DNA of 53,118 nucleotides from Verrucomicrobiia bacterium. GTDB lineage: Bacteria > Verrucomicrobiota > Verrucomicrobiia > Limisphaerales > CAIMTB01. A program made the translations under genes and the position numbers. The stretch is from assembly GCA_019634625.1 (NCBI GenBank), contig JAHCBA010000045.1, positions 1 through 53,118 on the forward strand, given 5' to 3'. This document shows, one piece after another, positions 8,101 through 36,621 of this stretch; within the stretch, counting starts at the first letter, position 1, and each line of letters opens with the position of its first letter. The notes beneath the pieces were generated by a model that was not told the origin of the DNA, did not search any database, and saw only the letters and a list, made by a program, of their open reading frames with translations.

Positions 8101-8754
8101 AGTTCGACCACGCGGCGTTTTGGGGGGACGGGGTTGGGGCTGGCGATTGCGCGGCAGCTTGTGGAATTGATGCACGGTCGGATCGACGTGCGGAGCGCGG
8201 TGGGGAAGGGATCGGTGTTCACCTTCACGGCGCGGTTTGGGGCCGGCGAGGGCGAGGGCAGGGAGCGGACGACGTCGCGACCGGAACCGGGGATGCCCGA
8301 CACCGGAGGCATGGGGGCGCCGGCACTGGGCGGCGGTGGCGGGAGCGGGGTGGACCGGAACGGATGCCTGGCGGGCCTGCGGGTGCTGCTGGCGGAGGAC
8401 AACCCTGTGAACCGGATGGTGGGCGTCCAGTTTGTGCGGAAGCTCGGGTGTGATGTCGTGGTGGCGAAGGATGGGCTGGAGGTGTTGCAGGCGATGGAGC
8501 GGGCGACGTTCGATGCGATCCTGATGGATGGTCACATGCCGGAGCTGGACGGGTACGAGACGACGCGGCGGCTGCGGGAACATCCGCGGCACCGCGGGGT
8601 GCGGATCATTGCGTTGACCGCGGATGCGATGAGCGGGGATCGGGAGCGATGCCTGGCGGCGGGGATGGATGATTACCTCAGCAAGCCGATCCGGATGGAG
8701 GCCTTGCGGGCGGCATTGGAGCGGGTTCGGTCCGGGGTGTGTGCCGGTGCGTGA
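5122..8754 (+). CDS. hybrid sensor histidine kinase with OB-like repeat sensor region
   Basis: The protein has about 1210 residues from GTG 5122; longer in-frame starts would run into the divergent gene. A signal/anchor segment at ~20-40 is followed by ~700 beta-rich residues in which strands of the form V-R-V-x-G recur near residues 112, 163, 211, 272, 371, 465, 510, 572, 663 and 713, suggesting tandem OB-like barrels. A membrane helix lies at ~758-780, then a short coiled coil. HisKA follows with the phospho-His in [11 protein letters not shown] (residue ~820), HATPase_c with [10 protein letters not shown] and GTGLGLAI, and a C-terminal receiver with the AEDN acidic pair and phospho-Asp ~1136 in [11 protein letters not shown]. 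No separate regulator is adjacent, so output may go through its own receiver or an unlinked partner. Confidence 0.88.
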
Positions 8755-8810
8755 GTGTACCGGGTGGAGCTGTTACCGGGCGGACCGGGGTCTGGCGGGG
8801 GATGCGGGTC

Positions 8811-8970
8811 GTGCATCCCGGAGTTGTGGGGAGAGGCGCGAACTTCGCGAAGCGTCGCCTCGGAGGGCCGGGTTCCACGAGGCCGCAACGGTGTGGAGCG
8901 TTGGGTTGAGGACTCGCGGAGCTCGTCCCTCCGATGCGTTGCCTCCTCACCCAAAAAATCTGGGATGCAC
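8811..8970. repeat. 160-bp dispersed nested-hairpin element, copy A
   Basis: This element is bounded by the inverted ends GTGCATCCC and GGGATGCAC. Inside lie further pairs: a CGGAGGG arm near the left third, a CCCTCCG arm near the right third, and a GAGCTC core in the right half. A second copy at 36395-36554 has the same length and the same ends, and partial copies occur elsewhere. It fills the gap between the hybrid kinase and menG, and contains no ORF of its own that looks real. It resembles a MITE or REP-type non-autonomous repeat. Confidence 0.85.
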
Positions 8971-9039
8971 CGGGATGCGGGCGGAGCGAAGGGCCGGGCT
9001 TTTCTTGGGAAGCGGGGGTGCCTAGGGTTTCGGCGAGGC

Positions 9040-10601: not shown

Positions 10602-10672
10602 AGGAATACCCGGGCAGGATGGGGCTGCACGGACTCGCGTCAACCGCGGGATGGACTGCGGCCAGGCAGGCG

Positions 10673-10766
10673 GTGCATCCCGGAGTTGTGGGTGAGGAGG
10701 CAGAGAATCGGAGGGACGAGCTCAGCGAGTCCTCCATCCACGGCACCCCTTCGCTGCGGGCCGGAG
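10673..10766. repeat. 160-bp dispersed element, truncated copy B (inverted)
   Basis: This copy runs opposite to copy A. It opens with GTGCATCCCGGAGTTGTGGG, continues with the TGAGGAGGCA block and the CGGAGGGACGAGCTC core, then loses similarity beyond the GAGTCCTC stretch. The far inverted end is missing. It abuts the stop codon of the convergent symporter gene at 10767. Confidence 0.75.
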
Positions 10767-14567: not shown

Positions 14568-14610
14568 GGGGGAGGCCTGAAACCTGAAAGCTGAAAGCTG
14601 AAGGCGGAAA

Positions 14611-14680
14611 CCTGAGACCTGAGACCTGAGACCTGAGACCTGAGACCTGAGACCTGAGACCTGAGACCTGAGACCTGAAG
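14611..14680. repeat. 7-bp tandem repeat (CCTGAGA)n
   Basis: Nine perfect CCTGAGA units are followed by one imperfect unit (CCTGAAG). Looser related units (CTGAAAG-like) lie just upstream from about 14579. The array sits between the convergent PduT-like and sulfatase genes, 44 bp past the shell-gene stop. It has no unique spacers, so it is a microsatellite rather than a CRISPR, and copy number is likely to vary between strains. Confidence 0.95.
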
Positions 14681-14693
14681 CCTGGGGGGTGGG

Positions 14694-20405: not shown

Positions 20406-20777
20406 ATGAAACCGGCAATACCCATTCTCAGGATCTTCGATGAGGCGAAGGCGCGGGAGTTTTACGTGGCGTTTCTGGGGTTCGGGGTGGATTGGGAGCA
20501 TCGGTTTGCCGAGGGGATGCCGTTGTATGTGCAGGTGTCGCGGGGGGAATGCGTGCTGCACTTGTCGGAGCACTTCGGGGACGCGTGTCCGGGGGGGACG
20601 GTGCGGATCGAGACGCCGGATCTGGATGCCTATCTACGAGGTTTGCGGGCGGCGGCGTACCGGCATTGTCGTCCGGGCGAACCGGCGCTTCAGCCGTGGG
20701 GTCTGCGGGAGATCGACCTGGCGGATCCGTTTGGCAACACGCTGATCCTTTTCGCGAAGCCCTCCGGGGCGGGCTGA
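20406..20777 (+). CDS. glyoxalase/bleomycin-resistance superfamily protein
   Basis: This is a 123-residue single-domain protein of the vicinal-oxygen-chelate fold. It shows the usual beta-alpha-beta-beta-beta pattern, with AREFYVAFLGFGVDWEHRF, YVQVSRGECVLHLSEH and the closing EIDLADPFGNTLILF. The His and Glu in these segments could bind a metal. Members include dioxygenases, resistance proteins and isomerases, and the substrate cannot be told. ATG 20406 is preferred over the in-frame start at 20391 because it follows a purine-rich AGGTGTCACG stretch and gives the normal fold length. Confidence 0.85.
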   Translation: MKPAIPILRIFDEAKAREFYVAFLGFGVDWEHRFAEGMPLYVQVSRGECVLHLSEHFGDACPGGTVRIETPDLDAYLRGLRAAAYRHCRPGEPALQPWGLREIDLADPFGNTLILFAKPSGAG

Positions 20778-20780
20778 ATT

Positions 20781-20841
20781 CTGCGAGGCCGCAGGGGAGT
20801 GGAGCGGTGGGATGAGGACTCGCGGAGCTCGCCCCTCCGGA
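20781..20841. repeat. dispersed element fragment D
   Basis: This fragment corresponds to the right part of the 160-bp element: a CGAGGCCGCA-like stretch, then GAGGACTCGCGGAGCTCG and CCCCTCCGG. Both GTGCATCCC ends are absent. It lies just after the glyoxalase-like gene, and a further TCCCTCCGGAG palindrome follows at 20848-20858. Confidence 0.65.
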
Positions 20842-23940: not shown

Positions 23941-24067
23941 GGAGGACTCGCGGAGCTCGTCCCTCCGAAAGGTGAAACGGGGTGGTGAATCCGGAGGGCC
24001 GAGCTCTGCGAGGCCGCGGGGGAGGGGTGCGGTGGGGATGAGGACTCGCGGAGCTCGTCCCTCCGGG
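23941..24067. repeat. two dispersed element fragments (E and F)
   Basis: Two fragments of the 160-bp element sit side by side: GGAGGACTCGCGGAGCTCGT with CCCTCCG at 23941-23967, and a longer piece at 23991-24067 containing CGGAGGGCCG, CGAGGCCGCGG and again the GGACTCGCGGAGCTCG core with CCCTCCGG. Neither has the GTGCATCCC termini. They fill the 190-bp gap between dsbD and the PQQ-propeller gene. Confidence 0.7.
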
Positions 24068-36360: not shown

Positions 36361-36394
36361 GGAATTTCTCGGGCCGGGAAGTGCCCTGCTCTCC

Positions 36395-36554
36395 GTGCAT
36401 CCCGGAGCGGGTGGGGAGAGGTGCGAACTCGGCCAAGCGGCGCTTCGGAGGGCCGGGTTCCACGAGGCCGCAACGGTGTGGGGCGTTGGGTTGAAGACTC
36501 GCGGAGCTCGTCCCTCCGGTTCGCTGGCTCGGTACCGACAACATGGGGATGCAC
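36395..36554. repeat. 160-bp dispersed nested-hairpin element, copy C
   Basis: This copy has the same length and orientation as copy A (8811-8970) and the same inverted ends (GTGCATCCC...GGGATGCAC). The central blocks CGGAGGGCCGGGTTCCACGA and ACTCGCGGAGCTCGTCCC are identical in both, while the flanking stretches differ. It lies between atpB and the receiver-like gene. Sequence outside the ends differs from that around copy A, which supports real element boundaries. Confidence 0.85.
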
Positions 36555-36621
36555 CGCGGGCCTCCGAGCTTCGAGGAAAGCCCTTTGCATTCGCGGGCGC
36601 GTTTTCCATCCTCAGCGGGCC

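Follow-up and report, generated by a model that had tools for sequence, protein, structure and literature searches.

A 163-bp MITE from Verrucomicrobiota that very probably joins the ends of an ISKra4-like insertion sequence to a resident palindromic repeat

Transposon-derived MITEs and REP-like palindromes are usually treated as separate classes, and the element described here unites the two. In plants, Mutator-type ends carry foreign DNA that is then amplified, producing Pack-MULEs; the present element differs in that its cargo, probably captured, is a short palindromic repeat rather than gene fragments. A parallel among bacterial MITEs is MITEAba12 of Acinetobacter, which is likewise short and non-coding, has the ends of a co-resident insertion sequence (ISAba12), resembles that insertion sequence at the ends only, and is flanked by 9-bp duplications (PMC6382973). 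It differs in its length of 113 bp, in a copy number of no more than tens per genome, in having another insertion sequence as partner, and in that its movement has been observed; moreover, unlike the present MITE, it has no described repeat cargo that also lives outside the MITE (PMC6382973). The ISKra4 group of Mutator-type transposases (p-MULT 4) is characterized by 18–39-bp inverted repeats with a terminal C, by 8- or 9-bp direct repeats, and, in some members, by accessory genes (PMC3942029). The partner insertion sequence described below has the same traits of end length, terminal C and duplication size, is similar in its transposase, and has a DruA-family ORF as its accessory gene, although the transposase scores below the curated cut-off for the ISKra4 family. 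The word MITE is absent from the ISKra4-group paper (PMC3942029), and a partial literature search turned up no previous account of MITEs from an ISKra4-like group or of REP-like cargo inside such a MITE. Finally, REPINs and GTAG-tagged REPs consist of paired inverted palindromes, as do the core of the present element and several sister interiors, and GTAG repeats are abundant in O. terrae, also a member of the Verrucomicrobia (PMC3116915, PMC3733652). In contrast to these repeats, the present core has no GTAG tag and, at the loci tested, no repeat-flanked RAYT gene, and the full element has target duplications. That the element is of a known kind, a MITE with an ISKra4-like partner, is well supported. 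What appears to be unusual is that the same transposon ends surround different, genome-specific palindromic repeats.

The window, meaning the whole 53,118-nt stretch that was analysed, is contig C45 of a draft assembly (6.74 Mb, 88 contigs) from the host, an uncultured Verrucomicrobiota bacterium. The original prediction described two exact 160-bp copies of a dispersed element at 8811-8970 and 36395-36554. Both are real, are equal in length, and share inverted ends and inner blocks; each is 164 bp long, with two additional bases at either end. A supposed partial copy at 10673-10766 is indeed a truncated copy with a single end, its extent now amended slightly, but two others, at 20781-20841 and 23941-24067, are instead the inner palindrome, alone and chained respectively, and carry no transposon ends. 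The features in the window are as follows.

8800..8808, no strand: left 9-bp target-site duplication of copy 1, GGATGCGGG, from flank comparison
8809..8972, plus strand: full-length MITE copy 1, 164 bp, between a sensor-kinase gene (end at 8754) and a UbiE/MenG-type methyltransferase gene
8809..8832, plus strand: left terminal inverted repeat of copy 1, IS-like, TCGTGCATCCCGGAGTTGTGGGGA
8861..8933, plus strand: inner palindrome of copy 1, a hetero-arm, REPIN-like core, CGGAGGGCCG...TCCCTCCG
8948..8972, plus strand: right terminal inverted repeat of copy 1, IS-like, inner part degraded
8973..8981, no strand: right 9-bp target-site duplication of copy 1, GGATGCGGG, from flank comparison
10671..10766, minus strand: one-ended truncated MITE copy, with one terminal repeat and the right arm of the core
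20768..20839, plus strand: inner palindrome alone, without terminal repeats
23945..24065, plus strand: inner-palindrome chain (right, left, right arm; ~98-bp period), without terminal repeats
36393..36556, plus strand: full-length MITE copy 2, 164 bp, upstream of a reverse-strand ATP synthase A-chain gene

The core pattern GACTCGCGGAGCTCGTCCCTCCG matches 7 times in the window, compared with 0 matches in 100 shuffles, and 532 times in the whole host genome, compared with 0 for a reversed control. Rfam has zero matches within the window. The gene beside copy 1 was suspected from its N-terminus to encode a Y1 transposase and turned out to encode the UbiE-type methyltransferase.

The repeat has a largely uniform length and fixed ends across the sampled host DNA. 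In a 2.02-Mb sample, with ends located at ≤5 mismatches and then paired, there are 87 full copies; 63 of these are exactly 163 bp, which is the genome mode, and the GTG-to-CAC distance is exactly 159 bp in 61 of 90 convergent end pairs. The termini read C[C/G]GTGCATCCC ... GGGATGCAC[C/G]G, and the 22-bp end pattern has 342 matches in the host genome. In 613 kb of contigs C1 and C2, which were chosen regardless of hits, there are 22 full elements, from which ~240 copies are estimated genome-wide. Convergent end pairs 0.9–3.4 kb apart in the sampled host DNA were considered as autonomous elements, and on inspection were chance pairs or the ends of separate MITEs. The left and right flanks of 82 elements were compared at every shift, and shift 13 alone stands out: flank positions 3–11 agree in 62%–77% of elements, with agreement near 30% at other positions and shifts. 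This pattern indicates an element length of 163 bp and a 9-bp target-site duplication. Window copy 1 still has the exact duplication on both sides, so its flanks are not unrelated as had been proposed; copy 2, at 36393-36556, has lost its target duplication. Plain segmental duplication is ruled out by the fixed ends and the 9-bp duplications; the copies share a common length and ends, and their flanks are not conserved.

The repeat therefore has terminal inverted repeats, no coding capacity, a uniform length within 70–300 bp, and a target-site duplication of fixed length, as MITEs do. It is a gene-less passenger MITE, whose mobility is suggested by the duplications and the copy numbers, in line with the original view of a non-coding, MITE-like dispersed element with defined ends and a mover encoded elsewhere. 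Median nearest-neighbour identity among copies is 0.914 and the best pair reaches 0.994, indicating mainly old copies with a few younger ones. The host also contains a graded series of truncated forms and many decayed copies.

What moves the element? A search of relatives with the element returned, in a congener, end matches only, 2.2 kb apart. They bound a 2,199-bp insertion sequence that has the same ends as the MITE, a DruA-family ORF (PF14236, 4e-23), and a stop-free transposase ORF. The best curated family for the transposase is ISKra4 (NF033572, 5e-45); because its 154 bits fall below the curated NCBIfam cut-off of 205, the autonomous partner is filed as ISKra4-like only. The host has a single 2,195-bp counterpart on G000:C21, again with a DruA ORF (PF14236, 4e-25) and a transposase ORF. 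This transposase ORF is 59% identical to that of the congener, contains one in-frame TGA, and is the sole close homolog found in the host. The left and right ends of the host insertion sequence are not identical, and five MITE copies agree with each of them, at 22/22 and 22/22 positions (44/44 bases). Thus, the MITE ends match an autonomous-type insertion sequence in the same and in related genomes. Since the likeness between insertion sequence and MITE is confined to the ends, descent by simple internal deletion is left unsupported.

Relatives provide further examples of the partner. At least nine further loci have a MITE-type end 30–31 bp past the stop codon of the transposase. No target duplication is seen at the host and congener copies themselves; among the relatives, the 9-bp duplication is perfect at copies L256 and L297 and 7/9 at L262. 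With positions assigned by eye, D164 and E371 of the putative DDE triad are invariant and the middle D is present in 4/5 sequences. The closest partner copies among named genomes are in Verrucomicrobiota MAGs. Among the close relatives scanned, the ORF upstream of the transposase is DruA-like in L253, L256, L257, and L262; in the more distant L266 and L268 it is not DruA-like. Several insertion sequences of Verrucomicrobiota (e.g., L205:576-2770 and L191:93-2291) have a DruA-family ORF, related to Druantia defence proteins, ahead of an ISKra4-like transposase, so that a gene known from a defence system appears as a companion of an insertion sequence transposase.

These sequences are best explained, with high probability, by a MITE composed of ISKra4-like ends around a resident palindromic repeat and moved in trans. 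The repeat would lie between two ~25-bp ends (CSGTGCATCCC...) that belong to an ISKra4-like insertion sequence with a Mutator-type DDE transposase. An older, independent inner palindrome would have come between the two ends and then been amplified as cargo. The full 2.2-kb element would supply the transposase in trans, acting on both MITE ends, and insertion by staggered cuts would duplicate 9 bp of target. The ISKra4-like transposase is the likely mover. Counting against this reading, the host and congener insertion sequences show no duplication of their own and an intact close transposase was not found in the host. Since the only close copy found has a stop within its transposase, the family is presumably now mostly inactive in this strain.

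The original prediction favoured a different mover, a REP-associated Y1 transposase. In that case the whole 163-bp unit would be of REP/REPIN type and mobilized by a Y1 (RAYT) transposase via single-stranded DNA. The inner core is indeed an inverted palindrome pair like a REPIN, and the host genome has 30 Y1_Tnp matches. However, the exact 9-bp duplications, of a kind that DDE elements produce, argue against this type of mobilization for the full element, and none of the loci tested shows a RAYT gene with the repeat on both sides, the arrangement that defines such systems. A core copy lies within ~1.5 kb of 4 of the 30 host Y1_Tnp loci, and none is bracketed by the core; 0 of 30 loci in six relatives carry it. 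Even for the stand-alone core, no RAYT gene flanked by cores was found among the Y1_Tnp loci tested in the host and six relatives. The GTAG palindromes of a genome's own MITEs are likewise missing from the Y1_Tnp loci of four additional genomes (0 of 21), although three loci in G087 lie close to different GTAG palindromes. The duplications and the unbracketed loci together rule out a REP-associated Y1 transposase as mover of the full element, and the REP/REPIN reading of the whole unit retains almost no probability. Several of the host Y1_Tnp loci (L031-L060) end at contig edges, suggesting a multi-copy IS200-like or RAYT-like family.

The inner palindrome also exists independently of the transposon ends. 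In the host it occurs alone or in chains with a ~98-bp period. With ≤1 mismatch, its right arm is present in 28 of 293 genomes of the order, including 460 occurrences in the host, and is absent from four congeners. Other families of the order have stand-alone cores: 19 clean palindromes of 65–82 bp in other genomes have no transposon ends and no target duplication. The stand-alone core has the form of a REP/REPIN, with two inverted palindromic arms, a short spacer, and no target duplication. In the congener G002 and in G028, hetero-arm cores resembling the MITE core occur by themselves. The inner hairpin is a repeat separate from the transposon that also lives alone in related bacteria. Head-to-tail chains with a ~97–98-bp period and a 24-bp linker are seen at L096:5258-5377, L135:16961-17226, and L140:8104-8321. 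Another repeat, like ACGAGTACCGCCCTTCGGGCTGAGTACGAG, often directly adjoins stand-alone cores (L007, L009, L025, L096, L135, L143).

The transposon ends, in turn, occur with other interiors. The MITE end pattern is found in 23 of 146 genomes of the order, and at least eight other genomes have elements with the same ends and a different interior, many with 9-bp duplications. These include G001 (114–121 and 171 bp), G032 (134 and 210–220 bp), G087 (137 bp), G092 (79–200 bp), G057 (193 bp), G116 (203 bp), and G040 (241 bp). Inverted GTAG...CTAC palindromes can be read directly in the interiors of the elements of G001, G032, G087, and G092. Elements of 161 bp in G007 (L337, L359, L399, L401) and G093 (L388-L395) have the same ends and interiors similar to each other, and two families of the order may have exchanged this interior. 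The 134-bp MITE of G032 (L429-L458) is nearly identical across roughly 150 copies, with perfect 9-bp duplications in 21 of 27 scorable copies; the near-identity and intact duplications point to a young burst. G032 has no homolog of the transposase at E 1e-10 or better, which weighs against the proposed mover, although draft assemblies often lose multi-copy insertion sequences.

Did the core arise within the MITE, with stand-alone copies being MITE remnants that lack ends? The graded truncated forms in the host fit such a history, as do the GTAG palindromes of G032, 29 of 30 of which, in the sample taken, lie inside MITEs; for G032, capture from a resident family is therefore unsupported. Against this, families in which no transposon ends were found, such as those of G020 and G006, still have lone cores; the hetero-arm form likewise occurs by itself in G002 and G028; and a single origin would require many lineages to have lost the ends, a less parsimonious history. 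An origin within the MITE is consequently unlikely, and the core was probably captured rather than evolved in place. More tentatively, ISKra4-like ends may have repeatedly captured resident palindromic repeat pairs in one Verrucomicrobiota order and amplified them as MITEs, a possibility to which we give somewhat less than even weight. If true, repeated capture would make these elements the bacterial equivalent of plant Pack-MULEs, with cargo resembling REPs. Several genomes with the same ends and different interiors, including one young burst, provide a direct testbed for how MITEs originate and how palindromic repeats spread.

The repeat could instead be kept for a host function, as a transcription terminator, an mRNA stabilizer, or a nucleoid site, with mobility incidental or past. 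Insertion points are intergenic in 63 of 85 cases in a genome that is ~82% coding by a rough home-made gene caller, and copy 1 forms a strong hairpin (z −6.8 for copy 1 and −3.0 for copy 2, relative to shuffles). Yet the purging of harmful insertions also predicts an intergenic bias, many copies are truncated and decayed, and the insertion points have no uniform position relative to gene strands. Compensatory changes are also few: across 40 copies, 35 pairs are predicted, and only 3 of the 35 have double-sided changes. Hence, the nested arms that had been proposed as a folded structure do fold strongly, and the inverted repeats account for this folding, leaving an RNA function undemonstrated. 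A terminator or RNA function is unsupported by covariation; some host role is possible, and host function as the main reason for the repeat's presence is improbable. Elsewhere in the window, a 7-bp unit, GAGACCT, is repeated in tandem at 14572-14690, and copies at the left edge of this array have diverged.
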